A DNA stretch of 64,000 bases from Cupriavidus sp. D39. Lineage in GTDB: Bacteria > Pseudomonadota > Gammaproteobacteria > Burkholderiales > Burkholderiaceae. Made by a program: the position numbers and the translations under genes. Positions 862-33,720 of this stretch are shown here, in pieces. Below the pieces are notes generated by a model. It had not been told where the DNA came from, did no database searches, and saw nothing but the letters and a program-made list of their open reading frames with translations. Where the stretch lies: assembly GCF_026627925.1 (NCBI RefSeq), contig NZ_JAPNLE010000011.1:146123-210122 (forward strand), written 5' to 3'. How positions within the stretch are numbered: position 1 is the first letter of the stretch; each line of letters starts with the position of its first letter.

Positions 862-3800
862 TTATTGTAACTCTCCTGAGTTGGTCGAGTTGACGTTCGA
901 CAGATTCATCACGCTTGTCGTATTGGCATCAACCAGCAGTGTCAGCGTCCGTTCGATCAGCGTGATTGAGGAAAGCTGCCGCTGTGCCGCAACATCCAGA
1001 CTCAATGGAGCAGACAACATGCCACTGGTCAAACGATCGCTGCCCCCGATCAACTGCTGCTTTCCTGTTGAGGCAATCGAGGTGAGTACCAGGCTCGATT
1101 GACCTTGCGTCACGCCCGAGAGCTGCGTCAATATCGTGTTGTCATTCGGTACCGTCATGTTCGACAGCGTCGTGTTACTTACTGTGCCGTTGGTTACATT
1201 GGATTGCGTTGAGTTGCTTTCCGAGATCTTCGTTACGGTCAAGTTGCCCGCGCTTACTCCTGTAACAATTGCCGCGCCATTAGAGGCAATAGTCACATTT
1301 ACGGTGCCATTCAGCGTGTTGTTCGAACCGCTGAGCACCACACTGCCATGGGCAGCCGTGAACGTTGCGGCACCACTCACGTTCAATGAGCCGTTGGTAG
1401 CCTGAGCGACGCTGCCTGTCACACTGGTCAGTGTGGCGTTCGTTGCCGTCACATTGGCCAGCGTCAGGTTCCCTGCGCTCGCCAGATTCACCGTATTGCC
1501 AGCCGTCGCCGTCACCGTGCCCAGCGCGCTGCTCGCGTTCGCCACCGTGATCGACCCATTGCCCGCCACCAGCGTCGTCGCGCCGCTCACGTTCACCACG
1601 CCCGTGTCCGTCACGCTGCCGCTCGTGCTCGACAAGCTCAGGTTCCCCGCGCTCACGTTACTCAGCACCACGTTGTTGTTCGCGCTCAGGGTCGCGTTGC
1701 CGCTCACGTTCACCGTGCCGCCCGCGGTCTCCACCACGCTGCCACCCACGCTCGTGAGCGTCGCGTTGCCTGCCGTCACACTGGCCAGCGTCAGGTTCCC
1801 CGCGCTCGCCAGGCTCACCGTATTGCCAGCCGACGCCGTCACCGTGCCCAGCGTGCTGCTCGCGTTCGCCACCGTGATCGACCCATTGCCCGCCACCAGC
1901 GTCGTCGACCCGCTCACGTTCACCACGCCCGTGTCCATCACACTGCCCGTCGTGCTCGACAAGCTCAGGTTCCCCGCGCTCACGTTACTCAGCACCACGT
2001 TGTTGTTCGCGCTCAGGGTCGCGTTGCCGCTCACGTTCACCGTGCCGCCCGCGGTCTCCACCACGCTGCCACCCACGCTCGTGAGCGTCGCGTTGCCTGC
2101 CGTCACACTGGCCAGCGTCAGGTTCCCCGCGCTCGCCAGGCTCACCGTGTCGTTGGCCGACGCCGTCACCGTGCCCAGCGTGCTGCTCGCGTTCGCCACC
2201 GTGATCGACCCATTGCCCGCCACCAGCGTCGTCGACCCGCTCACGTTCACCACGCCCGTGTCCATCACACTGCCCGTCGTGCTCGACAAGCTCAGGTTCC
2301 CCGCGCTCACGTTACTCAGCACCACGTTGTTGTTCGCGCTCAGGGTCGCGTTGCCGCTCACGTTCACCGTGCCGCCCGCGGTCTCCACCACGCTGCCACC
2401 CACGCTCGTGAGCGTCGCGTTGCCTGCCGTCACACTGGCCAGCGTCAGGTTCCCCGCGCTCGCCAGGCTCACCGTGTCGTTGGCCGACGCCGTCACCGTG
2501 CCCAGCGTGCTGCTCGCGTTCGCCACCGTGATCGACCCATTGCCCGCCACCAGCGTCGTCGACCCGCTCACGTTCACCACGCCCGTGTCCATCACACTGC
2601 CCGTCGTGCTCGACAAGCTCAGGTTCCCCGCGCTCACGTTACTCAGCACCACGTTGTTGTTCGCGCTCAGGGTCGCGTTGCCGCTCACGTTCACCGTGCC
2701 GCCCGCGGTCTCCACCACGCTGCCACCCACGCTCGTGAGCGTCGCGTTGCCTGCCGTCACGTTGGCCAGCGTCAGGTTCCCCGCGCTCGCCAGGCTCACC
2801 GTGTCGTTGGCCGACGCCGTCACCGTGCCCAGCGTGCTGCTCGCGTTCGCCACCGTGATCGACCCATTGCCCGCCACCAGCGTCGTCGACCCGCTCACGT
2901 TCACCACGCCCGTGTCTGTCACGCTGCCCGTCGTGCTCGTCGCGCTCAGGTTCCCCGCGCTCACGTTACTCAGCGCCACCGCGTTGGCCGCGCTCAGCGT
3001 CGCGTTGCCGCTCACGTTCACCGTGCCGCCCGCGCTCTCCACCACGCTGCCACCCACGCTCGTGAGCGTCGCGTTGCCTGCCGTCACGTTGGCCAGCGTC
3101 AGGTTCCCTGCGCTCGCCAGATTCACCGTATTGCCAGCCGTCGCCGTCACCGTGCCCAGCGCGCTGCTCGCGTTCGCCACCGTGATCGACCCATTGCCCG
3201 CCACCAGCGTCGTCGCGCCGCTCACGTTCACCACGCCCGTGTCCGTCACGCTGCCGCTCGTGCTCGACAAGCTCAGGTTCCCCGCGCTCACGTTACTCAG
3301 CACCACGTTGTTGTTCGCGCTCAGGGTCGCATTGCCGCTCACGTTCACCGTGCCGCCCGCGCTCTCCACCACGCTGCCACCCACGCTCGTGAGCGTCGCG
3401 TTGCCTGCCGTCACACTGGCCAGCGTCAGGTTCCCCCGCTCGCCACGTTCAGCGTATTGCCAGCCGTCGCCGTCACCGTGCCCAGCGCGTTGCTCGCGTT
3501 CGCCACCGTGATCGACCCGTTGCCCGCCACCAGCGTCGTCGATCCGCTCACGTTCAACACGCCCGTGTCCGTCACGCTGCCCGTCGTGCTCGACAAGCTC
3601 AGGTTCCCCGCGCTCACGTTACTCAGCGCCACCGCGTTGGCCGCGCTCAGCGTCGCATTGCCGCTCACGTTCAACACGCCGCCCGCGGTCTCCACCACGC
3701 TGCCACCCACGCTCGTGAGCGTCGCGTTGCCCGCCGTCACACTGGCCAGCGTCAGGTTCCCCCGCTCGCCACGTTCAGCGTATTGCCAGCCGTCGCCGTC

Positions 3801-6800
3801 ACCGTGCCCAGCGCGTTGCTCGCGTTCGCCACCGTGATCGACCCATTGCCCGCCACCAGCGTCGTCGACCCGCTCACGTTCACCACGCCCGTGTCTGTCA
3901 CGCTGCCCGTCGTGCTCGTCGCGCTCAGGTTCCCCGCGCTCACGTTACTCAGCGCCACCGCGTTGGCCGCGCTCAGCGTCGCGTTGCCGCTCACGTTCAC
4001 CGTGCCGCCCGCGCTCTCCACCACGCTGCCACCCACGCTCGTGAGCGTCGCGTTGCCTGCCGTCACGTTGGCCAGCGTCAGGTTCCCCGCGCTCGCCAGA
4101 TTCACCGTATTGCCAGCCGTCGCCGTCACCGTGCCCAGCGCGCTGCTCGCGTTCGCCACCGTGATCGACCCATTGCCCGCCACCAGCGTCGTCGCGCCGC
4201 TCACGTTCACCACGCCCGTGTCCGTCACGCTGCCGCTCGTGCTCGACAAGCTCAGGTTCCCCGCGCTCACGTTACTCAGCACCACGTTGTTGTTCGCGCT
4301 CAGGGTCGCATTGCCGCTCACGTTCACCGTGCCGCCCGCGCTCTCCACCACGCTGCCACCCACGCTCGTGAGCGTCGCGTTGCCTGCCGTCACACTGGCC
4401 AGCGTCAGGTTCCCCCGCTCGCCACGTTCAGCGTATTGCCAGCCGTCGCCGTCACCGTGCCCAGCGCGTTGCTCGCGTTCGCCACCGTGATCGACCCGTT
4501 GCCCGCCACCAGCGTCGTCGATCCGCTCACGTTCAACACGCCCGTGTCCGTCACGCTGCCCGTCGTGCTCGACAAGCTCAGGTTCCCCGCGCTCACGTTA
4601 CTCAGCGCCACCGCGTTGGCCGCGCTCATCGTCGCATTGCCGCTCACGTTCAACACGCCGCCCGCGGTCTCCACCACGCTGCCACCCACGCTCGTGAGCG
4701 TCGCGTTGCCCGCCGTCACACTGGCCAGCGTCAGGTTCCCCCGCTCGCCACGTTCAGCGTATTGCCAGCCGTCGCCGTCACCGTGCCCAGCGCGTTGCTC
4801 GCGTTCGCCACCGTGATCGACCCGTTGCCCGCCACCAGCGTCGTCGATCCGCTCACGTTCAACACGCCCGTGTCCGTCACGCTGCCGCTCGTGCTCGACA
4901 AGCTCAGGTTCCCCGCGCTCACGTTACTCAGCGCCACCGCGTTCGCCGCGCTCAGCGTCGCGTTGCCGCTCACGTTCACCGTGCCGTTCGCGCTCTCCAC
5001 CACGCTGCCACCCACGCTCGTGAGCGTCGCGTTTCCCGCCGTCACACTGGCCAGCGTCAGGTTCCCCGCGCTCGCCACGTTCAGCGTATTGCCAGCCGTC
5101 GCCGTCACCGTGCCCAGCGCGTTGCTCGCGTTCGCCACCGTGATCGACCCATTGCCCGCCACCAGCGTCGTCGATCCGCTCACGTTCACCGTGCCGCCCG
5201 CGGTCTCCACCACACTGCCACCCACGCTGGTGAGTGTCGCGTTGCCTGCCGTCACACTGGCCAGCGTCAGGTTCCCTGCGCTCGCCACGTTCAGCGTATT
5301 GCCAGCCGTCGCCGTCACCGTGCCCAGCGCGTTGCTCGCGTTCGCCACCGTGATCGACCCATTGCCCGCCACCAGCGTCGTCGATCCGCTCACGTTCACC
5401 GTGCCGCCCGCGGTCTCCACCACGCTGCCACCCACGCTCGTGAGTGTCGCGTTGCCTGCCGTCACACTGGCCAGCGTCAGGTTCCCCCGCTCGCCACGTT
5501 CAGCGTATTGCCAGCCGTCGCCGTCACCGTGCCCAGCGCGCTGCTCGCGTTCGCCACCGTGATCGACCCGTTGCCAGCCACCAGCGTCGTCGCGCCGCTC
5601 ACGTTCAACACGCCCGTGTCCGTCACGCTGCCGCGTCGTGCTCGACAAGCTCAGGTTCCCCGCGCTCACGTTACTCAGCGCCACCGCGTTGGCCGCGCTC
5701 AGCGTCGCGTTGCCGCTCACGTTCACCGCGCCGCCCGCGGTCTCCACCACGCTGCCACCCACGCTCGTGAGCGTCGCGTTGCCTGCCGTCACGTTGGCCA
5801 GCGTCAGGTTCCCCGCGCTCGCCAGGTTCAGCGTATTGCCAGCCGTCGCCGTCACCGTGCCCAGCGCGTTGCTCGCGTTCGCCACCGTGATCGACCCGTT
5901 GCCCGCCACCAGCGTCGTCGCGCCGCTCACGTTCAACACGCCCGTGTCCGTCACGCTGCCGCTCGTGCTCGACAAGCTCAGGTTCCCCGCGCTCACGTTA
6001 CTCAGCGCCACCGCGTTCGCCGCGCTCAGCGTCGCATTGCCGCTCACGTTCACCGTGCCGCCCGCGGTCTCCACCACACTGCCACCCACGCTGGTGAGTG
6101 TCGCGTTGCCTGCCGTCACACTGGCCAGCGTCAGGTTCCCTGCGCTCGCCAGGTTCAGCGTATTGCCAGCCGTCGCCGTCACCGTGCCCAGCGTGCTGCT
6201 CGCGTTCGCCACCGTGATCGACCCATTGCCCGCCACCAGCGTCGTCGATCCGCTCACGTTCACCGTGCCGCCTGCGGTCTCCACCACGCTGCCACCCACG
6301 CTCGTGAGCGTCGCGTTGCCCGCCGTCACACTGGCCAGCGTCAGGTTCCCCCGCTCGCCACGTTCAGCGTATTGCCAGCCGTCGCCGTCACCGTGCCCAG
6401 CGCGTTGCTCGCGTTCGCCACCGTGATCGACCCGTTGCCCGCCACCAGCATCGTCGCACCGCTCACGTTCACCACGCCCGTGTCCATCACACTGCCCGTC
6501 GTGCTCGACAAGCTCAGGTTCCCCGCGCTCACGTTACTCAGCGCCACTGCGTTCGCCGCGCTCAGCGTCGCGTTGCCGCTCACGTTCACCGCGCCGCCCG
6601 CGGTCTCCACCACGCTGCCACCCACGCTCGTGAGCGTCGCGTTGCCCGCCGTCACACTGGCCAGCGTCAGGTTCCCCCGCTCGCCACGTTCAGCGTATTG
6701 CCAGCCGTCGCCGTCACCGTGCCCAGCGCGTTGCTCGCGTTCGCCACCGTGATCGACCCGTTGCCCGCCACCAGCGTCGTCGATCCGCTCACGTTCAACA

Positions 6801-9800
6801 CGCCCGTGTCCGTCACGCTGCCCGTCGTGCTCGACAAGCTCAGGTTCCCCGCGCTCACGTTACTCAGCGCCACTGCGTTCGCCGCGCTCAGGGTCGCGTT
6901 GCCGCTCACGTTCACCGCGCCGCCCGCGCTCTCCACCACGCTGCCACCCACGCTCGTGAGTGTCGCGTTGCCCGCCGTCACACTGGCCAGCGTCAGGTTC
7001 CCCCGCTCGCCACGTTCAGCGTATTGCCAGCCGTCGCCGTCACCGTGCCCAGCGCGTTGCTCGCGTTCGCCACCGTGATCGACCCATTGCCCGCCACCAG
7101 CGTCGTCGACCCGCTCACGTTCAACACGCCCGTGTCCGTCACGCTGCCGCTCGTGCTCGACAAGCTCAGGTTGCCAGCACTCACGTTGCCTACCGTCAAA
7201 TCTCCCTTCGTGCTCAGCCCCAGCGTTCCTGATATCGTCAACGTTCCATTGACTCCAGAAATACTGCCATTCGTGCTGTTGAGCAGCACGTTGTCCGCCG
7301 ACAAGTTCCCCATCGAAATGTTGTTCGACGCGCTCAGATTCAAGGTCTCGTTCGCATTCAGGTACTGCCATGAGACAGAGCCATTCGTACTCACAACGCT
7401 GATATTGCCTGCGCTAACGGTCCCGAGCGCCAAGTTGCCTGCTTGCATTAGGCTCAAGTTTCCGCCTACATTCAAATCTAGGCTACCGCCAATCCTCGAA
7501 ATGCTGCCATTCGCGCTCGAGAGCATCAAGTTGTAGCTGGACACATTCGCAACGGTCAAATTACCGCTGTTCGCCAGCGCTACTGTTCCACTTGCGCTAT
7601 TCGTCGACACGGTCACCGTGCCATTCAGGTTGTTGCTCGTGCTATCCAGCACCACGCTGCCGTTGGCCGCCGTCAGCGCCGTATTGCCGCTCACGTTCAC
7701 CGTGCCGCCCGCGGTCTCCACCACGCTGCCACCCACGCTCGTGAGCGTCGCGTTGCCTGCCGTCACGTTGGCCAGCGTCAGGTTCCCCCGCTCGCCACGT
7801 TCAGCGTATTGCCAGCCGTCGCCGTCACCGTGCCCAGCGCGTTGCTCGCGTTCGCCACCGTGATCGACCCGTTGCCAGCCACCAGCGTCGTCGATCCGCT
7901 CACGTTCAACACGCCCGTGTCCGTCACGCTGCCGCTCGTGCTCGACAAGCTCAGGTTCCCCGCGCTCACGTTACTCAGCGCCACCGCGTTCGCCGCGCTC
8001 AGCGTCGCGTTGCCGCTCACGTTCACCGCGCCGCCCGCGGTCTCCACCACGCTGCCACCCACGCTCGTGAGTGTCGCGTTGCCTGCCGTCACACTGGCCA
8101 GCGTCAGGTTCCCCGCGCTCGCCACGTTCAGCGTATTGCCAGCCGTCGCCGTCACCGTGCCCAGCACGTTGCTCGCGTTCGCCACCGTGATCGACCCATT
8201 GCCCGCCACCAGCGTCGTCGATCCGCTCACGTTCACCGTGCCGCCCGCGGTCTCCACCACACTGCCACCCACGCTGGTGAGTGTCGCGTTGCCTGCCGTC
8301 ACACTGGCCAGCGTCAGGTTCCCTGCGCTCGCCAGGTTCAGCGTATTGCCAGCCGTCGCCGTCACCGTGCCCAGCGCGCTGCTCGCGTTCGCCACCGTGA
8401 TCGACCCATTGCCCGCCACCAGCGTCGTCGATCCGCTCACGTTCACCGTGCCGCCTGCGGTCTCCACCACGCTGCCACCCACGCTCGTGAGCGTCGCGTT
8501 GCCTGCCGTCACACTGGCCAGCGTCAGGTTCCCCCGCTCGCCACGTTCAGCGTATTGCCAGCCGTCGCCGTCACCGTGCCCAGCGCGTTGCTCGCGTTCG
8601 CCACCGTGATCGACCCGTTGCCCGCCACCAGCGTCGTCGATCCGCTCACGTTCAACACGCCCGTGTCCGTCACGCTGCCCGTCGTGCTCGACAAGCTCAG
8701 GTTCCCCGCGCTCACGTTACTCAGCGCCACCGCGTTGGCCGCGCTCATCGTCGCATTGCCGCTCACGTTCAACACGCCGCCCGCGGTCTCCACCACGCTG
8801 CCACCCACGCTCGTGAGCGTCGCGTTGCCCGCCGTCACACTGGCCAGCGTCAGGTTCCCCCGCTCGCCACGTTCAGCGTATTGCCAGCCGTCGCCGTCAC
8901 CGTGCCCAGCGCGCTGCTGGCGTTCGCCACCGTGATCGACCCATTGCCCGCCACCAGCGTCGTCGCACCGCTCACGTTCAACACGCCCGTGTCCGTCACG
9001 CTGCCGTACGTGCTCGACAAGCTCAGGTTCCCCGCGCTCACATTCCCCGACAGCGACACCGCGTTGTTCGCACTCAGGGTCGCGTTGCCGCTCACGTTCA
9101 ACACGCCGCCCGCGGTCTCCACCACGCCGCCACCCACGCTCGTGAGTGTCGCGTTGCCCGCCGTCACACTGGCCAGCGTCAGGTTCCCCCGCTCGCCACG
9201 TTCAGCGTATTGCCAGCCGTCGCCGTCACCGTGCCCAGCGCGTTGCTCGCGTTCGCCACCGTGATCGACCCATTGCCCGCCACCAGCGTCGTCGATCCGC
9301 TCACGTTCACCGTGCCGCCCGCGGTCTCCACCACGCTGCCACCCACGCTCGTGAGCGTCGCGTTGCCTGCCGTCACGTTGGCCAGCGTCAGGTTCCCTGC
9401 GCTCGCCAGATTCACCGTATTGTCAGCCGTCGCCGTCGCCGTCACCGTGCCCAGCGCGCTGCTCGCGTTCGCCACCGTGATCGACCCATTGCCCGCCACC
9501 AGCGTCGTCGCGCCGCTCACGTTCACCACGCCCGTGTCCGTCACGCTGCCGCTCGTGCTCGACAAGCTCAGGTTCCCCGCGCTCACGTTACTCAGCGCCA
9601 CCGCGTTCGCCGCGCTCAGCGTCGCGTTGCCGCTCACGTTCACCGCGCCGCCCGCGGTCTCCACCACGCTGCCACCCACGCTCGTGAGTGTCGCGTTGCC
9701 TGCCGTCACACTGGCCAGCGTCAGGTTCCCCCGCTCGCCACGTTCAGCGTATTGCCAGCCGTCGCCGTCACCGTGCCCAGCGCGTTGCTCGCGTTCGCCA

Positions 9801-12800
9801 CCGTGATCGACCCATTGCCCGCCACCAGCGTCGTCGATCCGCTCACGTTCACCGTGCCGCCCGCGGTCTCCACCACACTGCCACCCACGCTGGTGAGTGT
9901 CGCGTTGCCTGCCGTCACACTGGCCAGCGTCAGGTTCCCTGCGCTCGCCACGTTCAGCGTATTGCCAGCCGTCGCCGTCACCGTGCCCAGCGCGTTGCTC
10001 GCGTTCGCCACCGTGATCGACCCATTGCCCGCCACCAGCGTCGTCGATCCGCTCACGTTCAACACGCCCGTGTCCGTCACGCTGCCGCTCGTGCTCGACA
10101 AGCTCAGGTTCCCCGCGCTCACGTTTGCAAGGACAAGACTACCCGATTGGGTCAGGCTCAACGTTCCAGCCACATTGAGCGACCCACTCACGCCGTTGAT
10201 GCTGCCATTCGTGCTCCACAGATAAACGTTAGCCGCAGCTACGTTGGCCAGCGTTAGATTGCCTACGCTCGCCACGTTCAGCGTATTGCCAGCCGTCGCC
10301 GTCACCGTGCCCAGCGCGTTGCTCGCGTTCGCCACCGTGATCGACCCATTGCCCGCCACCAGCGTCGTCGACCCGCTCACGTTCAACACGCCGCCCGCGG
10401 TCTCCACCACGCTGCCACCCACGCTCGTGAGTGTCGCGTTGCCCGCCGTCACACTGGCCAGCGTCAGGTTCCCTGCGCTCGCCACGTTCAGCGTATTGCC
10501 AGCCGTCGCCGTCACCGTGCCCAGCGCGTTGCTCGCGTTCGCCACCGTGATCGACCCATTGCCCGCCACCAGCGTCGTCGACCCGCTCACGTTCACCACG
10601 CCCGTGTCCGTCACGCTACCGGTCGTGCTCGTCGCACTCAGGTTCCCTGCGCTCACGTTGCCCGATAGCGCCACCGCGTTGGCCGCGCTCAGCGTCAGGT
10701 TCCCGCTCACCGTCACCACCCCACCGGCGGCCTCCATCACCACACCACCCGTACTCCACAGCGTCACATTGCCCGCCGTCACGTTGGCCAGCGTTAGGTT
10801 GTTTGCACTCGTCAGATTCAGCGTTCCGCTCGAGTTCACCGTCGCGCTCACCGTGCCCAGCGCGTTGCTCGCGTTCGCCACCGTGATCGACCCATTGCCC
10901 GCCACCAGCGTCGTCGATCCGCTCACGTTCAACACGCCGCCCGCGGTCTCCACCACGCTGCCACCCACGCTCGTGAGCGTCGCGTTTCCCGCCGTCACAC
11001 TGGCCAGCGTCAGGTTCCCCGCGCTCGCCACGTTCAGCGTATTGCCAGCCGTCGCCGTCACCGTGCCCAGCACGTTGCTCGCGTTCGCCACCGTGATCGA
11101 CCCATTGCCCGCCACCAGCGTCGTCGATCCGCTCACGTTCACCGTGCCGCCCGCGGTCTCCACCACGCTGCCACCCACGCTCGTGAGTGTCGCGTTGCCT
11201 GCCGTCACACTGGCCAGCGTCAGGTTCCCTGCGCTCGCCACGTTCAGCGTATTGCCAGCCGTCGCCGTCACCGTGCCCAGCACGTTGCTCGCGTTTGACA
11301 GCGTCACCGACCCGTTGCCAGCCACCAGCGTCGTCGATCCGCTCACGTTCACCGTGCCGCCCGCGGTCTCCACCACGCTGCCACCCACGCTGGTGAGTGT
11401 CGCGTTGCCTGCCGTCACGTTGGCCAGCGTCAGGTTGCCACTATTTATCAGGGTCAGTGTATTACCCGCTGTCGCCGTCACTGCGCCTCCCAGTGTCCCA
11501 GACGCCGTGATGCACTGTGCTGCTGTGATCGCCGTCGATCCATTCACGTTCAATGTGCCGAAGATATGCACGTCACTGGCGGTGGTCGTAGCACTGAAGT
11601 TCCCCCAACCGTTACATTAACGATTGGAATGCCCGTCTGAGCCGACAGCGTCATGTTGCCAGTCGCAATCCAATTGCGAGGACCACTTCCAGTTGCTGTT
11701 ATGCCGGATCCAGTGCTCGTTACATTCAAATTGTTAGCTGAAATGCAGTTAAGGATGATCTGTTGAGCAGCGGTCAGATTCGCATCGCCGCTCACGTTCA
11801 CCGTGCTATTCCCGTTCGCCGTGATCCATCCCGACGCGCTCGTGATCGTCGCGTTGCCCGCCACCACGTTGGCCAGCGTCAGGTTCCCCGCGCTCGCCAC
11901 GTTCAGCGTATTGCCAGCCGTCGCGCTCACCGTGCCCAGCGCGTTGCTCGCGTTCGCCACCGTGATCGACCCATTGCCCGCCACCAGCGTCGTCGATCCG
12001 CTCACGTTCACCGTGCCGCCCGCGGTCTCCACCACACTGCCACCCACGCTGGTGAGTGTCGCGTTGCCTGCCGTCACACTGGCCAGCGTCAGGTTCCCTG
12101 CGCTCGCCAGGTTCAGCGTATTGCCAGCCGTCGCCGTCACCGTGCCCAGCGTGCTGCTCGCGTTCGCCACCGTGATCGACCCATTGCCCGCCACCAGCGT
12201 CGTCGACCCGCTCACGTTCACCACGCCCGTGTCCGTCACGCTACCGGTCGTGCTCGTCGCACTCAGGTTCCCTGCGCTCACGTTGCCCGATAGCGCCACC
12301 GCGTTGGCCGCGCTCAGCGTCAGGTTCCCGCTCACCGTCACCACCCCACCGGCGGCCTCCATCACAACACCACCCGTACTCCACAGCGTCACATTGCCCG
12401 CCGTCACGTTGGCCAGCGTTAGGTTGTTTGCACTCGTCAGATTCAGCGTTCCGCTCGAGTTCACCGTCGCGCTCACCGTGCCCAGCGCGTTGCTCGCGTT
12501 CGCCACCGTGATCGACCCATTGCCCGCCACCAGCGTCGTCGATCCGCTCACGTTCAACACGCCAATGTCCGTCACGCTACCGTACGTGCTCGTCGCGCTC
12601 AGGTTGCCCGCCGTTACGTTTGCAAGGACAAGACTACCCGATTGGGTCAGGCTCAACGTTCCAGCCACATTGAGTGACCCACTCACGCCGTTGATGCTGC
12701 CATTCGTGCTCCACAGATAAACGTTAGCCGCAGCTACGTTGGCCAGCGTTAGATTGCCTACGCTCGTCAGATTCAACGTTCCGCTCGAGTTCACCGTTGC

Positions 12801-15757
12801 ACTCACCGTGCCCAGCGCGTTGCTCGCGTTCGACAGCGTCACCAAACCGTTGCTCGCCGTGAGCGTTGTCGATCCGCTCACGTTCACCACGCCCGTGTCC
12901 GTCACGCTGCCGTACGTGCTCGACAAGCTCAGGTTCCCCGCGCTCACATTCCCCGACAGCGACACCGCGTTGTTCGCACTCAGCGTCGCGTTGCCGCTCA
13001 CGTTCAATACGCCGCCCGCGCTCTCCACCACGCTGCCACCCACGCTCGTGAGTGTCGCGTTGCCTGCCGTCACACTGGCCAGCGTCAGGTTCCCCGCGCT
13101 CGCCACGTTCAGCGTATTGCCAGCTGTCGCGCTCCCCATGCCCAGTGCGTTGCTTGCGTTCGCCAGCGTCACCGACCCGTTGCTCGCCACCAGCGTCGTC
13201 GACCCGCTGACATTCACCACGCCCCAGCCCGTCACGTTACCCGTCGTGCTGGTCACGCTTAGGTTTCCCGCTGTGACGTTGCTGTAGAACATCACATCGC
13301 CATTACTCGTCACAGTGGCACTGCCAACGTTCAAATCTCCTGGCCAGAAGGTGACGCCCCCATGTAGGGCAGTCAACGTGAGATTCTGCACCGTCAGCGG
13401 TACGGTATTTGAATAGGCAATAGCGCCGCCACTACTGCTACATCCAACAATCGCAAGATTGACTGCCGATATATTGACGCCATTTGAAATGAAAACCCCA
13501 TCGGTAGAGCTGCTGTACCCGATTAACGCCATAACCCCATTAGTCTGAGTAATGTTCGTAGCAATATATATACCTCGAGCAGAACTCGAATTTCCAAATA
13601 AGCTTATATATCCACCCCCCGTTTGATTAACATCTCTTATAAATATTCCATTTCCCGACACAGAATTTCCAATTAGGGAAATACTTCCATTGCCGTTCTG
13701 AATTAACGACGAACCCCCTTGATCGAGGCCAATTCCATTTCTGCCAGAACCGCTGGTACACCCATAAATCGTTAAGTTTCCTCCGCCATTCTGGATAACT
13801 GCTGCCGAAGTCTGTATCCCTGCCGACGACGTAGCCGTTCCATTTATTGACAGTGAACCAGCACCAGATACAGTAAGATTACTTCCAATCGAAACCCCTG
13901 CCGGGGAAGACGAGATTACTCCAGTTCCACCCGATAAATTAATTGAGCCCGCCGCGCCACTAAATTGAATCCCATAACCGTTGCCAATCACCCCCTGCGG
14001 TTATATTTAAATTTCCACCATTAGTGTTAATGACAAAACTATCAAGCTCTACCCCCGCTAGGCGCCAGCATGCTCACATTGAGCTGGTTGCTCGACGAGG
14101 TAATGTTGCCCTGGTTGTAATAGATGTTGCGATCGGCAGTCAGCGTCAGGCTGGCATTGCCACCGCTGCTCTTAACGATGTCGCTGCTGATCGTGATGTT
14201 GCCGGCCGCGCTCCCCCGCTGGTCGTACTGATCGTCACCGACGTACCGCTATTCAGGTCGCTCGCGATGCTGGCATTGTTGATCACGGACGCGGCGTTCG
14301 TCACCGTCCAGGTCCCGCTACTGTCCGTCGCATTCGACGTGGCACTGCTGCTGATGACCACATTTGTCGGATCCAGTAGCCACTCGCCGCCTTTCCCTGC
14401 GGCGCACTCGCATCTACGGACCCAAATGCTTGAAGGTGATTGTGGCTCGAGGTCTCCACAAATCCTCCATCACCCCTTGCGCACCGCCCCGCGCCGTGAT
14501 CGTCCCCTCGAAATCCGTGGACGCGTCCGACCACACCGCTACATTGCCGCCCCGCCCGATTTGCGTGGCCGAAGCATCGATGCGGGAGCTCGCATCCAGG
14601 ATCGTCATATTGGCGTTCGTCACGTTCGCGTCCGTGCCGTGGAAGCTTCCACCCACCAACACCGTCCCTCCGCCAGTGGCCCCGTTCGCATTGATCTCGC
14701 TGCCGTTAAAGAGCCCCACATACTGGCCCATTACCGTCACGTTCCCGCCCTGACCCGTTTGGCTCGACACATCGATCGTCGCACCCGTGAGGTTCACCAC
14801 CCCTTGCGCGCCGCCATCCAGCGTGACTTGGCCACCATTGGACGCATTGATCACCCCGCTCAGGTTGATCACATTGTTCAGCAGCGCGTTGGCCGACTTC
14901 GCGCTGAGCAGCACCTGACCACCCTGCGCATCGATTTGACCGGCGTTCTCCACCAGCGCGTCAGCCGACGCCGCATCCAGTGTTACCCCAGCCAGCAGCC
15001 CGTTATTGAGCACCACCGTCGCACGGTCCCCAGCCAGCAGCACCACCTTCCCGCCGTTGGCCTGGATCGTTCCCGTGTTACGCACCTGGTCCCCCAGCAG
15101 GACCACATAGCCGCCGGGCGCGTTAATCGTCCCGTCGTTCTGCACCAGGCCCGTCGTATTGCTCGAGCGCAGCAGCGACAGCGTCGCACATCCGGCCATG
15201 AAGGCGTCCGTGTTGATATCCTTGGTCGACGCAAGAATGCTCCCAACATTGATCACCGCGCCGTGTCCAAACATCACCCCGTACGGGTTAACGATGAACA
15301 CTTGGCCGTTGGCCGTCAGGCTGCCCAGGATCTGCGTCGTGCTGCCCGACACCACCCGGTTCAGAATCTGCGACGTGCTGCCCGGCTGGATGAACTGCAC
15401 CGCGTTGCCTGCGCCAATATCGAAGGAATTCCACTGCACCACCGCACGGCCGGACTGCTGAACAATCTGCAACTGTTGCGCACTTGGTTGCGTCACCGTG
15501 ACCTGGCCTGCGACGACATTGGCCCCGCTTGGCAGCGAACCGGCCGACATTGCGCCAAGCGGCCACGCCGTCCCCGCGGCCAACGACGCGCCCAGCGCCA
15601 CCCATTTCACCCGGCACAGCCACACCTGTGCCTGCCGCGCGAGCATCGCTCCACCCTCGCCCGGTTGGTTCTTCTTGCAGCTGACCACCGTCTCGGCCAC
15701 GGCCACAGTCATCCCGCGCTTCTTGTCGAATACCAGGCGATAAAGGTTCTTGTTCAT
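862..15757 (-). CDS. Giant two-partner-secretion adhesin (TpsA, HMW1/FHA-like), frame broken many times
   Basis: About 4,960 codons if the breaks are ignored. The N-terminus (MNKNLYRLVFDKKRG) is an extended signal peptide of type V secretion, followed by the TPS/haemagglutination-activity domain with NPYGVMFGHGAVINVGSILA, equivalent to the NPNGI region that engages TpsB. Residues from about 450 onward are mostly 109-residue units rich in N-X-S/T. The C-terminal 100 residues are non-repetitive, with no anchor motif that I recognise. The reading frame is lost at 14473-14476, 14395-14397, 14213-14217, 14052-14056, 13991-13995 and 11602-11606, and at 13 identical places in the repeats; nearly all are C4/C5 runs on the plus strand. 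A compensating insertion sits near 5633. The protein should be glycosylated in the cytoplasm, secreted through the transporter upstream in the same operon (15844-17618) and act in surface attachment. TPS identity is firm; whether the gene is functional depends on the breaks being sequencing errors. Confidence 0.85.
1430..13290 (-). repeat. 327-bp (109-residue) adhesin repeat array
   Basis: The body of the adhesin is a patchwork of a 327-bp unit. Identical landmarks recur 326 bp apart in several places (3426, 3752; 4405, 4731; 6341, 6667, 6993; 8524, 8850). The unit encodes segments beginning TAGNATLTSVGGSVVE, TVNVSGNATLSA, VVLSNVSAGNLSL, TTLVAGNGSITVANAS and AGNLTLANV. Some units are shortened by dropping the middle segments, for example 5180-5470. 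Neighbouring units are nearly identical at DNA level, which implies recent homogenisation or expansion. A divergent island without the standard unit lies at about 7170-7680, and another at 13270-13980. Each full unit has 9 to 11 N-X-S/T sequons. Confidence 0.9.
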
Positions 15758-15843
15758 TTTGGTATAACTCGTGTGGTATTAAAGCAAAACAGCCCGCAGC
15801 AATGCTAAACGGGCAGAGTTCGGTGTCTCGGGGCAAGGAAGCC

Positions 15844-17618
15844 CTAAAATCGGTATCCGAGCGTCAGCCAGACATGCGCTCCGGCGTTCGCGGGATCGTT
15901 GATCGCGCTGCTACTTGTCGCAAAGCGCCTGGACCAGGACAGGTTCAGCAACAGCCGGTGCGGGCTGACCCAGTCGATGCCGATGCCGTAACCGGCCAGC
16001 ACTCGATGGTTACTCAATGTGCTGTTTCGATAGCCGCTCAGGCTCTGCCAGCTCGCGTAAGCGCTGTGATTGGCATAGCCATTCACGTAGTCAATGAACA
16101 GGTTCGGCGCGAGCTGATCGCCTGTACTAAAGGTGAAGCGCCGAGCCAGCGCCAGCGTCGCCAACACGCCTTCATCGAGGGAACCTTCCCCGCCGCCGAA
16201 CGCGCGCACGCCTGTGGCTCCACCTACGCCCAGCTTCTCGTACCCGTCCATGTTGCCGCTTGTGAGCTGGCCGCGCGCCCGCATCAGCAGGTACCACTCC
16301 CCGCCTGTCGTCAGATTCTGCTTGCGCAGCGCATCATACGAGAGCTTGGCGTAGTGTCCGAGCTGGTGGCCTGGATCGGCCAGTGCCGCGCCGTCGCGCA
16401 CGTCTCCCATGAGCAGCGACACACTGCCCGACCAGTAGCTGTTGCCACCCTGAATGGCGCGATCCCCCGAGTCGCCGGTGATTGAGAGCTGGCCAGCATA
16501 TAGACTCTTGTTTGACGTGTTGATGCCCAGCATGTCGACGCTCGAATGCACGGCCTTGCCATCGAGCACCGCCACCCAATTACTGTCCAGCGAGCGAACC
16601 AGCGGATACGCGATCCCCAGTGTCCCCACATCCGCCTTGCCATCGGCACTCGTGCTCGGCAGCGTATAGAGCGTATGCGCGACGCTACTTGTCCAGCGCA
16701 ACCCTCGAGATCCCAGCGGCGCACTCACGCTCAACTGCCCCGTCGTCTGCTGGCGGCTGCTCTCGAACGCCGACAGATTGATCACGTCCCCCCATGAAAG
16801 AGGTTCGTCGCCGTGCCGGTCACGCCCAGCCGGTTGTGACCGGTCGCCGAGACGCCACCGTTGTCTACGCTAACAAATCCCGAGAACAAGCGGTCCTTCT
16901 GCTGCACCTCCACTACCAGCTTCGTCTGCCCTATGCCCACGCCCTGCGCGGAAAACTCTGGCGCACCAATCTGCACGCCCGGCGTGTCGCGCAACAACTG
17001 CAATGCCCTCTCTAAGTGCGCTGCCGTCAACGCGCATGCAGCACTCGCGTCCGGACACAGCGCGCTCGTCACCACCTGCCGCAGATGTTCTGTACTCACC
17101 CGTGAGCTGTTCCTAATTTCGATATCGCCCACTTCTCCCGCAAACAGCGTGACCTTCAGCTGTCCCGTCTTGAGGAACCGCTCCCGCTCGCTTGGCCTCA
17201 CGATCGCTACCGCGACCAGATAACCGGCCCGTCGCAATGCCAGTGTCAGGTCTGACTCCAACTGCGCGAGCGATGCCGTGTCCAGAATTCGCCCCATCAG
17301 CGCCTGGCGTTGCTGCTCCATGACGCCCACCAGGCCCCGATGTTCGCCTTGGATCTCCCACTCTACCTCCTGCACGCTTACGCGCTGGCTCGGCTCACCT
17401 TGCAATGTATTGGGTTGCGCTCCCGCCTCCCTAGGAGGTGGGCCCAGTACCATCAACATCAGTAGCACCGCTCCTGCAATCTGCGTCCGCCATACCTTCG
17501 TCTGTCCGCCTTCGGTTTGCAAGCTAGATCTCCGCTTTCTCTGCCGCTGTAACATATCGTTCGAGTTCTTTTTAGCTTCGGCCGCCGCCAGCGGGCGCGC
17601 CCGGATAGGAAATACCAT
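15844..17618 (-). CDS. TpsB outer-membrane transporter (ShlB/FhaC/HMW1B family), one frameshift
   Basis: About 590 residues when rejoined. A hydrophobic signal segment (GAVLLMLMVLG) is followed by a POTRA region (about residues 75-230, starting VSVQEVEWEIQGE) and a beta-barrel. The barrel contains VRAFGGGEGSLDEG, matching the conserved VRGY/F loop-6 motif of the Omp85/TpsB superfamily, and ends in TLGYRF with a terminal Phe as expected for a Bam-inserted protein. The frame breaks at a C6 run (plus strand 16788-16793); one more base restores HGGDVINLSAFES. I chose the ATG at 17618 because GAAGG lies just upstream; an ATG at 17555 is the alternative. The gene lies 86 bp upstream of the adhesin in the same direction, so the two are likely one operon. 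Confidence 0.88.
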
Positions 17619-18334
17619 CAGCCTTCAGGCACGAAAATACCGGGCGCGCGCCCACGGAAGACTTACATTTCCCCACCAAAGGCTCGGATCTAAGGCAACC
17701 CCTTGAAGACCCTTTGTCCATCACCAGCCCGCAGCAGAAAGAAGAACTCGGCCCCGGCATCCATTCGGCGTGCGCCGCTGGACCTACCAGACCGGAACGC
17801 AGGTGCACGTGCCAGGAATCGAAAAACTAAAGGTCAGCGCCGACGTAAACCTCACCCACAGTGGAGTGAACCGGTCATCTGGGCAGATGGCCGGCGCGCG
17901 CGGATGTTGAACATCAGCAAAAAACTGGGGCCACTCGTGCCTGGACATCGAATCGGGCTTCCCGCTCGACAAACGCCCGCGTCGCGCGCACGCTAAAGTA
18001 GTTGCACCGCTCGGAATTTTGAGGTGCCGTGTCGCAACTGCGCGAATCGCTATGCCGTTTTGCCTGCCGGAGCGCTCGCAGTAGGCTTTGTCTTGGTATC
18101 GTTCCTCGCGGCCCCCAAGAAATGTAAGTCATCTGCGAGTGCGTTTCAGTTAGCCTCCAAGTGGCTCGAAGCTGACCCGCCTGAGGGCAAGAAAACGTCG
18201 GCTGGCAACAAGAACCCCTGACGCAGGACGACATAACGATCAAAGCAGCACTGAGGCGACAATGCCGAAGGTGTATCCGAACGCAGCTAAACATGAATAG
18301 CGCATCCCCCGCTGGATGACGACTGAGGTGTACG
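17619..18334. promoter_or_regulatory. Divergent intergenic region between tpsB and the glycosyltransferase
   Basis: About 715 bp separate the start of the transporter gene (minus) from the start of the HMW1C-like gene (plus). No convincing gene is seen; the short open frames on both strands lack family features. Both transcription units must start here, so it should hold two promoters and probably any shared regulator site. I see no clear -35/-10 pair or operator that I would defend. Confidence 0.5.
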
Positions 18335-20226
18335 ATGAGCTTCAATCTAGAAAGATTCGAGTATTGGGTCTACAACCACCGGTACGAGGAAGCAGGCCGA
18401 GAATTGCTCGTATTGTTGCAATCACTTGACGGCCAATATGGGTCGCTGGACGGTCAGTTCGAGGCCGTGGTGCAGTCGCCGGCAGCTATTGATGCCGTGG
18501 ACGATCACTTGCTAAGCCGACTTGCCGGGGCGGTGACGACGCTGGTCGTGGATCCCGCGTTTCAACTCTCCGATGTCGGATTTGCGACCACCTTAAATAT
18601 GCACCGATGGCTCTCGGCGCTATTTGCCGCAAGTCCCTATCGCAACGCGGATCATATTCTGCGCGCGCTTAATCAAGATGGTGCCGGTGCAACCACCATA
18701 CGGGTGGCCTATCGGGATCTCCGGAAATTCGCGTTATTCTATCTGACGGAATCAGAGCTGCCGCTGGACATCAATGAACTATGGGGGTTCGACAAGAAAC
18801 TGATGGCCGGGTTGGCTATGACGCTGATTTCGCCTCGCTTTCTGGGTACGCCCGCGGCACATGGCAAGCGGGAGGCACTACTCCAATGGTTGTCTTCCCA
18901 TCTCGCAGAGGTGGATCTGGACGACCTGCCTGGCGGAATCTTGCACGACGTCTACATGCACTGCAGCTACGCAGACTATGCCGGCAAGCATGATATTAAA
19001 AAACCGTTGAACGAGCTGATTCGCCGCAAGCTACACGCGCGCGGGCTAGAGGACTTGCGCTTTGGAGCGCAACGCCCAAAGCCGGGCCAAAAACCGACAC
19101 TACTGGTTGTGCTCGAATGGTTTACAGAAAATCATTCCATCTACCGTACCCACTCGCTGACCATCGAGGGGATGAGGCGGCATTTTCATGTCATTGGAAT
19201 TGGCTACGCCGACCGCGTCGATACCGTCACGCGACAGGTCTTCGATGAGTTCGTTGAACTCGCGGAAGCCGATGTTTGGCACAGTGTGGCTCGCATGAGA
19301 GACATCTGTATAGATCGCGATGTGCAGGTTTGTTATATGCCAAGTGTCGGGATGTTTCCGCTGACCATGGTCCTGTCGAATCTGCGGGTCGCCCCGTTAC
19401 AGTTGATGGCATTGGGGCATCCAGCCACAACACACTCGCACGCCATCGACTTCGTCGTGGTCGAGGAAGACTATGTGGGGGATCCGACGTGCTTTGGTGA
19501 GCCACTTTTGACCTTGCCTAGGGACGGCATGCCGTACCGGCCGCCGGCCGGCATGAAGGCGCTGGAGTTAAAACGCACACGCGATGACGATGCACATGTG
19601 GTGCGGATTGCTGTGGCTGCGACGACAATGAAACTAAATCCTGGTTTTTGGAAGCGTGTGCAAGAATCGCTGAACGGGCGCAGGCGCCGGTGCAATTCCA
19701 TTTTCTGATCGGACAAGCCATTGGACTGGTGCTGCCACAGGTCCAGCGTCTGATCAGGCGCTACCTGAGTGACAAGGCCATCGTCTACGGGCATCAAGCA
19801 TACGCGGACTACATGCGTGTCATCGCCAACTGCGACATGTTCCTGAACCCGTTCCCGTTTGGCAATACCAACGGGATCGTGGACACGGTCTTTGCAGGAC
19901 TTGTCGGTGTGTGCAAAACGGGGCCCGAAGTGCACGAGCATATCGATGAAGGAATGTTTGGGCGACTAGATTTTCCACGGTGGCTAGTCGCAGACACGGT
20001 GGATAAGTATGTCGAGGCAGCCCTGATATTGATTGACGACGCCGGCGAGAGGAAGACGCTCGCGCAAAACCTTGCAGGGCCAGCCGCCATCAACAAGGTC
20101 ATCTTCGCCGGCCGTGCCGAGATACTTGGCGACAAAATCGAGGCTCTTTGGAAGAGCAGACTCTCGCAGCATGCCGCCCCGGCAGCCGCCAAGACAGGTT
20201 CGCTCGGAACGGTGATGGAGGTCTAA
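18335..20226 (+). CDS. HMW1C-type cytosolic N-glucosyltransferase (GT41), one frameshift
   Basis: About 630 residues when rejoined, close to the usual HMW1C length (about 620). Family signatures are plain: HSIYRTHSLTIEGMR, YMPSVGMFPLTMVLSN, LMALGHPATTHSHAIDFV, EEDYVGDPTCFGEPLL, AATTMKLNPGF (with the Lys used for the nucleotide sugar), NPFPFGNTNGIVD and VGVCKTGPEVHEHIDEG. Enzymes of this family transfer glucose or galactose from UDP-sugar to Asn in N-X-S/T of an exported adhesin, in the cytoplasm and without a lipid carrier. The frame is lost at a T5 run (19645-19649); a sixth T gives NPGFLEACARIAERAQ and the rest of the domain. A GAGGTG ribosome site precedes the ATG. The next gene starts 3 bp after its stop. 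Confidence 0.93.
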
Positions 20227-20229
20227 GCA

Positions 20230-22053
20230 ATGCGCGAAGCGGATAAGGCAGCCCGGCGGAGATTGCAGGAGCGCGTGTTTGTCGAGCGCTACTTCGTCGG
20301 CACTGGCATCGATATCGGTGCCGGCGAAGCACCTTTGTCCAGTTATGTTGGCAAGTTCAACCGCATGAAAAGCGTTAGAGCTTGGGACATTGGCGATGGT
20401 GATGCTCAGTTAATGATCGGCGTTGCCGACGAAGCGTATGACTTTGTACATTCAAGCCACTGTTTGGAGCATCTGGAGAACCCAAGTATCGCGTTGCGGA
20501 ACTGGCTGCGCATTCTCAGACCAGGCGGATACTTGATCGTCACGGTACCTGACGAGGATTTGTACGAGCGCGGCCATTGGCCGTCCCAGTTCAATTCGGA
20601 CCACAAGTGGAGCTTTACGCTATGTAAAGCAAATAGTTCTCTGCCTCGCTCTGTGAACGTAGTCTCATTGCTGCATGAGTTTGCTAACGAGGTACAGTGT
20701 GAGCGGATTATCCAGTTGCGCGATCAGTACGACGAGCGTGTGGCGAGTACCGTTGACCAAACTCTAGGTGATGCCGAGTGTGCAATCGAATGGGTGTGGC
20801 GGAAAGTTGATCCGAACGTGACGGTCCGTGTCGAGAAATCGACTGGCCAGTGGCTACACGAAGGCATTGTTGCAGAACATCAAGCGAACGATGATCAGAC
20901 GGCGGAACATGCCTATCGTGCTGCAGTGGCTGCACAGCGCCCATCGCTTGACGCCTATAACGCGCTCGCACACTTGCTGACGCGGCTGGCGCGCTACGAC
21001 GAAGTAGAGGCACTTTGGAGCAACGCTGCGCAGCGTTTGCCAAATGCGCAGACGCGCATATTTCAGGCGCTATTCCTATTACAGCTCGGCAAATTCAGGG
21101 AAGGATTCCGAGTCCGGGAGGCGAGTGTCTCTGATACCCGCCGCACGCCGACTCTACCCGAAGTCCCATATCCACGTTGGCAGGGCGAACGCTTGGAAGG
21201 CAAATCCATCGTGATATGGACGGAGTTTGGTTTCGGTGACGAAATCATGTTTAGCCGCTTCGCGCTGGATCTGAAAACGCACCTGAATGCCGATCGCGTG
21301 ACCGTACTTTGCCAGGACGCGCTCTATCCGCTATTGCGAGATGCGCTGATCGGTGCCGATTTGGTGATGCCCGTTTCGCGTCGAGCGGATTTGCCCCTCC
21401 ACGACTATTGGGTGTTTCCACACTCGATCCCAGTCTATAGAACGCTCTCGGAGCATTCGATCCCGGGAGCACCGTATTTGCACGTAGCTGCGATCCGAGA
21501 AATGGAGATCGAACGCGGCTGGCGTTGGACAGACAATCGGTATAAGGTAGGCTTGGTTTGGCACGGTAACCCGACGCATGAAAACGATGCAAACCGCTCA
21601 TTGTCGTCACTTGCTCTGTTGCAAGACGTCCTGAGTGTGCAGAACGTGACCTTTGTAAGTCTGCAGAGCGGCAAAGGAGAGGAAGAGGCCAGGCAACGAG
21701 CGCGTACTGACCCAAAGTTCTTCGCGCTTGGACATCGATTTAGCGATTTTAGGCAGACAGCTGCCGCAATCGCAAACCTGGATCTTGTGATTTCGGTCGA
21801 TACAGCTGTCACTCATTTGGCCGGGGCGATGGGAAAGCCCGTCTGGTTGTTACTGCCCACTGTCTGTGACTGGCGTTGGATGCTCGAACGACAAGACAGT
21901 CCCTGGTATCCGGCAATGCACATTTTTAGACAAGAACGGCTTGGACAATGGCAACCGGTCCTGAGTCGGGTTGCATTCGAGCTCTCACGATGGCGCGACA
22001 GAGCTAAGATACCACGTAACTTGCGTCGCGACCGTCACGCTTCGTTGAAATGA
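20230..22053 (+). CDS. Methyltransferase-TPR-glycosyltransferase fusion protein
   Basis: 607 residues, intact. Residues about 20-140 are a class I SAM-dependent methyltransferase-like domain (GIDIGAGEAPL, later HSSHCLEHLENP and LRPGGYLIVTVPDED). Residues about 215-300 resemble TPR helices. The C-terminal part (about 310-600) resembles the tetratricopeptide-linked GT9/heptosyltransferase-like fold: GKSIVIWTEFGFGDEIMFSR, KVGLVWHGNPTHENDANRS, SVDTAVTHLAGAMGKPVWLLL. GGAGG precedes the ATG, and the gene follows the N-glucosyltransferase by 3 bp, so the two are co-translated. I infer that it extends or modifies the first sugar on the adhesin; the sequence does not show acceptor or donor. An unrelated role in surface polysaccharide is possible. 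Confidence 0.75.
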   Translation: MREADKAARRRLQERVFVERYFVGTGIDIGAGEAPLSSYVGKFNRMKSVRAWDIGDGDAQLMIGVADEAYDFVHSSHCLEHLENPSIALRNWLRILRPGGYLIVTVPDEDLYERGHWPSQFNSDHKWSFTLCKANSSLPRSVNVVSLLHEFANEVQCERIIQLRDQYDERVASTVDQTLGDAECAIEWVWRKVDPNVTVRVEKSTGQWLHEGIVAEHQANDDQTAEHAYRAAVAAQRPSLDAYNALAHLLTRLARYDEVEALWSNAAQRLPNAQTRIFQALFLLQLGKFREGFRVREASVSDTRRTPTLPEVPYPRWQGERLEGKSIVIWTEFGFGDEIMFSRFALDLKTHLNADRVTVLCQDALYPLLRDALIGADLVMPVSRRADLPLHDYWVFPHSIPVYRTLSEHSIPGAPYLHVAAIREMEIERGWRWTDNRYKVGLVWHGNPTHENDANRSLSSLALLQDVLSVQNVTFVSLQSGKGEEEARQRARTDPKFFALGHRFSDFRQTAAAIANLDLVISVDTAVTHLAGAMGKPVWLLLPTVCDWRWMLERQDSPWYPAMHIFRQERLGQWQPVLSRVAFELSRWRDRAKIPRNLRRDRHASLK

Positions 22054-22631
22054 TCGAACGCCGGTCATCCGGTTTCACTTTGATTGGGAGCGAGCATGCC
22101 GTGCCCATCGCAGGGCTGAGTTCTCGCAACTGCCTGTTCGGTCTTTAAGAGCACCGATCTCCTATTCCTCAAGGCACTGCGCGCGCGCATCCAGTGGCCT
22201 CCCTGATGATCGTCGTTCCCCAATTCGCTAACGGTGGCAACACTCCGAGCGTTGTGCATGGGCTTCATTCCACTGTGCGACGCCTGGATTTGGGTAACAA
22301 CGCCATACCAGAAGCCTAGTTGGCGCGCGCTTTTACTAAGATGGCGCCGGCATGGGATGCGCCGAAACCCTCAATCGGAACGCACGATATCGGTCAGCTC
22401 ATGACACGACTTTCGCCATCCGCAGCATGTCTTTAGGCAAAAGTAAGCCAAAGGCGGGGCATCGTGCAATAGCCTAAATATTCTAATCGCTATCGCCCAG
22501 CCAAGTGGTTTCCGCAATAGACGAATAAGGATTCCTGATTTCGCAGGACCATGTCCGCGAGTTGTGTATTTTTACTCACTTGGCGGCTGGACACGGACGC
22601 TACCTGTAGCACGAAACGAAAAGGAATGTTG
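22054..22631. other. Intergenic stretch, no gene seen
   Basis: About 580 bp between the glycosyltransferase fusion and the next gene. Short frames on either strand show no family feature. GC content falls here relative to the upstream locus, marking the transition into the lower-GC signalling region. Confidence 0.5.
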
Positions 22632-31995: not shown

Positions 31996-32222
31996 GATGG
32001 CAAAGTCGTCAAAGGATACATCTGCTAGGCACTCTCCGGAGATAAATGGGTGTTATCTCCTCCGGCGATCGGGAATCGGATCCGCCGCGGAGGCACTGCA
32101 GACCGTATGCAAGGCTCTGGTCTCAGAGCACGAAAGAATGCAGCCGCCGTCGGGCACCCCACAAGAGTCGGTGCAAAAAGCCCCCTCTCAAGGTTGGTTT
32201 AGTTCTTATAGTTCTGTAGTTT

Positions 32223-33685: not shown

Positions 33686-33720
33686 CTTTCCCCCGCTTAT
33701 TATTCTCTAATTATTGTTTG

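Follow-up and report, generated by a model that had tools for sequence, protein, structure and literature searches.

HMW1C enzymes transfer hexose to asparagine in the sequons of their two-partner secretion (TPS) adhesin, and the pro-piece of HMW1 is reported to be unglycosylated (PMC3983070; papers are cited here for the parts of their text available to us). In the EtpBAC system of enterotoxigenic Escherichia coli, the exoprotein EtpA carries hexose at 133 asparagine sites (PMC11463764), and in Actinobacillus pleuropneumoniae a second glycosyltransferase, Agt, a GT4 enzyme, works with the N-glucosyltransferase (NGT) and elongates the glucose (PMC12159676). TPS plus HMW1C loci have been described in Burkholderia before: a 2014 review lists HMW1C-like enzymes there, and its section 4 and Fig. 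2A legend, which describe the same kind of locus in the same bacterial family as ours, name no methyltransferase–glycosyltransferase partner (PMC3983070). Here we analysed the terminal 64,000 nucleotides (the window) of a 210-kb contig of Cupriavidus sp. D39 (NZ_JAPNLE010000011.1, positions 146,123 to 210,122; genome 7.7 Mb in 11 contigs). It carries genes for a TPS adhesin (TpsA), its transporter (TpsB), an HMW1C-type enzyme and a further protein with a methyltransferase and a glycosyltransferase half (MT-GT). An earlier note on this DNA had proposed this gene set, and Pfam, NCBIfam and PDB matches show it to be real. Its assignment as an HMW1/Etp-type TPS glyco-adhesin locus is supported by the family matches, by conserved contact residues, by synteny and by a controlled sequon test. 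We consider it probable that the locus is such a cassette on a plasmid-like contig, with MT-GT as a second cytoplasmic glycosyltransferase.

The HMW1C-type gene is read as two pieces in different frames (Table 1). The HMW1C_N and HMw1_D2 matches of piece 1 were both above the Pfam cut-off, and the pieces matched the NGT structures 8p0q, 3q3e and 8j30, with E values for piece 1 of 5e-105 (8p0q) and 2e-101 (3q3e). The NCBIfam NGTferase model gave 432 bits for piece 1 and 199 bits for piece 2, each below the whole-protein cut-off of 1000. A plasmid enzyme of E. coli H10407, which we take to be EtpC, is 46.7% identical to piece 1. We then compared the pieces, read separately and with no sequence corrected, with 18 AaNGT residues that are in contact with the donor or the peptide (PMC10507012). 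Seventeen are the same (11/11 in piece 1, 6/7 in piece 2), Ser495 being replaced by Gln. Those conserved include Arg177 and Asp215; replacing either by alanine reportedly inactivates AaNGT (PMC10507012). The earlier note had expected its reading to fall if active-site residues were absent from a corrected sequence; they are present, and no correction was needed. These results support membership in the NGT family (GT41), for which transfer of glucose to asparagine would be the predicted activity. One unbroken frame of about 620 codons was not found here, whereas relatives have intact copies. The host genome holds a single HMw1_D2 match.

The adhesin region spans 862-15757 on the minus strand, about 14.9 kb, which agrees with the earlier claim of an adhesin roughly three times as long as HMW1. 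The TPS secretion domain lies beside TpsB, as expected of a two-partner system. The Pfam matches of TpsB were below cut-off, and neither partner has an open frame. Against TpsB of relatives, piece 1 showed 37-41% identity over 154-186 aa and piece 2 showed 32-36%, mostly over about 300 aa. Like HMW1A/HMW1B/HMW1C of Haemophilus influenzae, the window joins a TPS adhesin, a TpsB exporter and an HMW1C-type enzyme, with a sequon-rich adhesin body and an unenriched TPS part; unlike that system, it has a longer adhesin with DUF5649 repeats, an extra MT-GT and, as the earlier note had said, a divergent layout, TpsA and TpsB lying on the minus strand and the two enzymes on the plus strand. HMW1 tethering needs two C-terminal cysteines (PMC3983070). 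The last adhesin piece (862-3414) has no cysteine among its final 200 residues, the true C-terminal end of TpsA being unsure while the frames are broken. With EtpBAC the locus shares a repeat-built exoprotein with dense N-X-S/T sites, but EtpA is much shorter and the available text describes no MT-GT partner (PMC11463764). In two Caballeronia loci (L009:16920-19931 and L049:7740-9931; labels beginning with L are ours) the TPS N-domain is fused to or abuts TpsB and the repeat body is missing, while HMW1C and MT-GT are kept; this is either deletion or assembly collapse.

The body of the window adhesin contains 329 N-X-S/T sequons in 4,222 aa (7.8 per 100), 2.24 times the shuffled expectation, whereas its N-terminal TPS piece contains 8, near chance (shuffle 4.9 ± 2.1). 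This is the pattern of an HMW1-type substrate. The count pools 13 of the 14 body pieces, without piece 6667-7371, half of which is out of frame, and the repeats are not independent, there being 98 distinct 9-residue contexts among the 329. The reversed motif was not enriched (0.87). Seven HMW1C-linked bodies (the window, L008, L164, L165, L219, L235 and L226, the last a 1400-aa open reading frame (ORF) without a Pfam match that lies next to TpsB and runs up to the end of its contig) gave ratios of 1.87-5.48, against 0.77-1.33 for 18 control bodies (Mann–Whitney p 2e-6). The controls comprised 17 TPS bodies for which the stretch examined showed no HMW1C match and the second TPS gene of strain PREW-6R, located some 3 kb past the HMW1C of that strain. 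Short TPS pieces, among them those of L009, L010 and L012, fall outside the count. The sequon density to which the earlier note appealed thus holds up against controls. A second TPS gene on the window's own contig, in separate frames (L023:14199-18502), showed no clear enrichment (1.29 and 1.26). HMW1C also adjoins giant sequon-rich ORFs with no or a short TPS match (L158, L159, L161, L162, L233 and L234; 1.59-2.37), which suggests that other giant surface proteins may be substrates.

Several observations weigh against the glyco-adhesin reading. Three of the four genes are frame-broken as read, MT-GT being the sole intact one; no TpsB was seen in 41 kb around the locus of PREW-6R, the nearest relative; and no tested activity for MT-GT was found in the literature. 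The control bodies were hand-picked (the strongest TPS-domain matches with long frames) and not matched for repeat type. The reversed motif was also raised in the six other linked bodies (1.23-2.40; L164 2.40, L219 2.06, L226 1.91) and stood at 0.37-1.02 in controls, and clustering of N with S/T therefore explains part of the enrichment. The HMW1C-linked TpsA of L013 (928-aa body) was unenriched at 0.96, with a further 468-aa ORF at 0.61. So were the TPS exoproteins of L233 (1.19) and L234 (1.06), which lie at a distance of about 4 kb from HMW1C, and non-TPS ORFs of 1335 aa close to HMW1C gave 1.24 in L230 and 1.21 in L231. Rows left out of the seven-versus-18 comparison are disclosed here as well: fragments of L163 (1.87 and 2.70), L215 (1.57), L223 (1.82), L222 (0.66) and L232 (0.99), and the N-terminal piece of L015 (1.83); the body piece of L015 (2.54; reversed 1.95), L161 (1.84) and the second ORF of L158 (1.68); the non-TPS giants of L158, L159, L162 and L234 (1.59-2.05; L234 2.05); two giant non-TPS ORFs next to HMW1C in L233 (2.37 and 1.95); and the host's broken second TPS gene.

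MT-GT is the less expected part of the locus, and we found no mention of such a partner of HMW1C in open-licence papers. Its gene starts 3 bases after the HMW1C frame, as the earlier note had stated. The description given there, methyltransferase, tetratricopeptide repeat (TPR) and glycosyltransferase, holds for the two ends: both halves have intact motifs, and the Glyco_transf_9 match scored 28.1 bits against a cut-off of 22, over only 67 matched residues, with a D-T-x-x-x-H motif present. The TPR part is hinted at in the window protein by a TPR-like ANAPC3 match below cut-off (E 0.0064) and is clear in the close relative P0013 (TPR_2, E 7e-9). GT9 includes lipopolysaccharide (LPS) heptosyltransferases, and MT-GT gave a weak match to LPS heptosyltransferase I. 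Searched against PDB, its profile matched only two methyltransferases (E 0.001). Kinship with HMW1C within GT41 was considered and rejected (hhalign profile probability 0.1). To our knowledge, TibC and other bacterial autotransporter heptosyltransferases (BAHT) have no methyltransferase or TPR half. Their acceptors are autotransporters, not TPS proteins as here; they share with MT-GT a glycosyltransferase of heptosyltransferase type, and they modify a surface adhesin (PMC4358343), as MT-GT may do.

Across 27 HMW1C-linked MT-GT sequences, V-D-T-x(3)-H was present in 26 (L165 has N for H) and the same or a close variant in most other sequences, whereas S-adenosylmethionine (SAM) motif I was intact in 11 and lost in 16, and the L-E-H/D motif was intact in 9. 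Because the glycosyltransferase motif is near-invariant while the methyltransferase motifs are often lost, the glycosyltransferase appears to be the part that selection keeps, the methyltransferase motifs having gone in part of the family. In a tree made by a quick method from 97 sequences (38 from the loci and the window, 59 of 120 listed proteins), the window MT-GT groups with PREW-6R (two identical rows), P0013 and P0022. HMW1C-linked members are spread over deep branches with unlinked ones nested inside (5 changes, 4 of them forced; shuffled mean 9.8). A possible fusion is seen in L013:22130-24604, where a match to TpsB is followed, within a single open frame, by a match to the glycosyltransferase half of MT-GT.

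To place the gene pair in its family, we used a sample of 398 Burkholderiaceae genomes from a larger group. HMw1_D2 matched in 66 of them, so the β-proteobacterial setting stressed by the earlier note is real but, given the Burkholderia loci already in print, not new. Among 48 HMW1C loci taken from genome contigs, 26 had a TpsB match, 20 a full-length MT-GT, 5 a partial or split MT-GT and 11 a TPS N-domain, the last count being bounded by flanks of at most 10 kb that often end inside the adhesin. The 26 loci with TpsB comprised 18 with full-length MT-GT, 2 with partial and 6 with none (L040, L047, L048, L051, L054 and L058). MT-GT matches at E 1e-80 or better numbered 34 in 30 genomes, two of them partial (G004), with up to three candidates scored per genome. 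HMW1C lay within 5 kb on the same strand at 22 of these 34 places and at 22 of the 24 above 380 bits, a line drawn after the list was seen. Counted by genome, 25 had both genes, 5 MT-GT only, 41 HMW1C only and 327 neither (Fisher p 3e-17, relatedness not corrected for). The four genes also stay together, in changed order, in a Polynucleobacter-like genome (L164) and in another genus (L165). MT-GT is thus a conserved partner of HMW1C and not a local oddity. Some loci hold two HMW1C genes, often flanking TpsB (L042, L044, L045, L046, L047 and L052).

This linkage bears on a further alternative, in which the enzymes act on other targets, such as LPS or other outer-membrane proteins, and are mere neighbours of the adhesin. 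The heptosyltransferase-like match of MT-GT and the many HMW1C loci with no TPS genes in the stretch examined would fit it, as would HMW1C-like family members that modify various proteins and have no adjacent adhesin (PMC3983070). We regard it as improbable: sequons are enriched mostly in adhesins linked to HMW1C, the second TPS gene of the window's contig stands at 1.26, and the gene set stays together across genera.

We next considered what MT-GT might do in the glyco-adhesin cassette. Following the HMW1 precedent, the HMW1C-type enzyme would use UDP-glucose in the cytoplasm to attach one glucose at each of many Asn-X-Ser/Thr sites while the adhesin body is unfolded, leaving the TPS domain nearly bare of glucose, and TpsB would export the glucose-loaded protein. 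The N-terminal half of MT-GT may bind exported surface proteins in the cytoplasm, and the enzyme may add a further sugar, directly on protein or onto the first glucose; the methyltransferase half would be optional in the family, with its motifs intact here. That either enzyme modifies this adhesin we infer from such parallels, and the donor, acceptor and linkage of MT-GT are conjecture. One possibility, which we hold tentatively, is that MT-GT merely elongates the N-linked glucose in the manner of Agt, giving a di-hexose or methylated disaccharide. The near-strict adjacency to HMW1C at the best-scoring places favours this, together with the 3-base gap here, a 4-base overlap of the two genes in L015 and L016, and the precedent of NGT plus Agt (PMC12159676). 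MT-GT, however, matches GT9 and not GT4, and has a methyltransferase half.

The MT-GT genes that are not linked to HMW1C also speak against simple elongation. We retrieved 10 of the 12 such places and typed neighbouring genes at all of these except L147 and L148. Six (L151-L156) form one branch with support 100, and in each of them tblastn placed flgK and then flgL upstream of MT-GT in the same direction, at 0.2-1.0 kb; Pfam typing confirmed FlgK in L153 and L154 and FlgL in L153. Three of the six genomes have no HMw1_D2 match, and this branch therefore cannot depend on HMW1C-made glucose there. The methyltransferase motifs are degenerate in all six. In L149 and L150, also unlinked, a phosphoesterase gene lies nearby. 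The flagellar setting recalls FlmG of Caulobacter crescentus, a 596-residue protein with an N-terminal TPR substrate-binding half and a C-terminal GT-B domain that glycosylates flagellins in the cytoplasm (PMC7591256). The likeness would lie in a putative TPR plus glycosyltransferase build of MT-GT and in the flagellar setting, by description rather than by sequence comparison, and the word methyltransferase is absent from the available text of the FlmG paper (PMC7591256), whereas MT-GT has such a half. Because the flgK-flgL adjacency resembles FlmG acting on flagellins, this analogy suggests that MT-GT has a protein acceptor. With FlmG and NGT plus Agt as their respective precedents, direct protein glycosylation by MT-GT seems about level with glucose elongation. 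A broader proposal, which we think rather unlikely, is that the members of the MT-GT family are cytoplasmic enzymes that glycosylate exported surface proteins directly, and do so at sites that do not depend on HMW1C: giant TPS adhesins, which would then carry two glycans (N-glucose and a second, possibly methylated sugar), or FlgK/FlgL.

The earlier note had called the locus complete, which does not match the frames as read: TpsA is broken into at least 15 pieces (the N-terminal piece and 14 listed body pieces), and TpsB and HMW1C into two each. Intact copies exist in relatives, for the adhesin, HMW1C and MT-GT in PREW-6R and for all four genes in L164 and L165. ORF-length statistics failed to decide assembly quality, which was therefore judged against the genes of relatives; L021 contributed no usable synteny. 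Over two stretches of chromosome checked in this way, 1 of 21 gene-like intervals was clearly broken, although some of the 21 may be shadow frames. The broken case is a galactarate-dehydratase-like gene (L018:18167-19322), in three frames here and one in relatives; recN also changes frame at its start, but outside the RecN domain, and was not counted. Because this chromosomal gene is also split, breaks are not confined to the locus, and they are far denser in it than in the checked chromosomal stretches. That density is one reason to consider a decaying pseudogene set, in which real frame-shifts killed TpsA, TpsB and HMW1C and left MT-GT as the survivor. One identical shorter, frame-shifting variant occurs at 13 of 34 repeat junctions (found by pattern), as if a single mutation had spread by unequal crossing-over; the second TPS gene on the contig is likewise broken; and relatives include truncated or fused adhesins (L009 and L049) and a damaged insect-symbiont locus (L072). 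We give decay a substantial though minority chance. HMW1C retains its contact residues, MT-GT is fully open with intact motifs, the split dehydratase-like gene places breaks beyond the locus, and the same TpsA repeat haplotype occurs with both the shorter and the longer junction variant, as would be expected from base-calling errors within a repeat. We judge assembly error, an unproved explanation, to be somewhat likelier than decay, and on this footing the genes would be whole in the living cell.

Elsewhere in the window, ParA-like, ParB-like and two integrase matches at 48-61 kb suggest that the contig is plasmid-like. The spacer that separates the start regions of the divergent TpsB and HMW1C genes showed no promoter-like site, and a promoter and terminator scan was near chance; no Rfam family and no tRNA matched in window scans. 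MT-GT is followed by a 531-aa ORF, for which Pfam, NCBIfam and PHROGs gave no match at E 0.001, and then by signalling genes.

Table 1 Features of the locus and its surroundings, in window coordinates
Feature	Position	Strand	Evidence
TpsA repeat body: DUF5649 repeats, 327-base units in several arrays	862..13991	minus	Pfam PF18886 on two pieces, tandem repeats, ORFs
TpsA N-terminal piece: ESPR extended signal peptide and TPS secretion domain, 447 aa	14414..15757	minus	Pfam PF05860 E 6e-35, PF13018 E 1e-7
TpsB piece 2, barrel	15844..16785	minus	Omp85/ShlB, both below cut-off
TpsB piece 1, N-terminal POTRA part	16782..17618	minus	POTRA_2 and ShlB, both below cut-off
Spacer, 716 bases	17619..18334		
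HMW1C piece 1: AAD domain and first part of GT-B domain	18335..19708	plus	HMW1C_N E 8e-22, HMw1_D2 E 6e-26
HMW1C piece 2: UDP-binding C-terminal part	19648..20226	plus	PDB 8p0q E 5e-50
MT-GT, intact, 607 aa: methyltransferase, weak TPR, GT9-type glycosyltransferase	20230..22053	plus	Methyltransf_23 E 5e-13, Glyco_transf_9 E 2e-6
531-aa ORF	22551..24146		
Signalling genes: PAS-GGDEF-EAL, 7TMR-DISM-type kinases, dCache-GGDEF, response regulator	24346..26004, 29173..34425, 38138..40072		
Partition and integrase genes	48430..49779, 51538..53700, 58365..59177, 59605..61173		ParA/ParB-like and two integrase matches

The tested HMW1C-type systems described in the papers cited here come from bacteria of people and animals (PMC3983070, PMC11463764, PMC12159676). 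Our survey finds the same kind of locus to be frequent in Burkholderiaceae, on very long adhesins and with a conserved fourth gene, and the flagellar branch of that gene's family predicts that FlgK or FlgL would be glycosylated in its strains.

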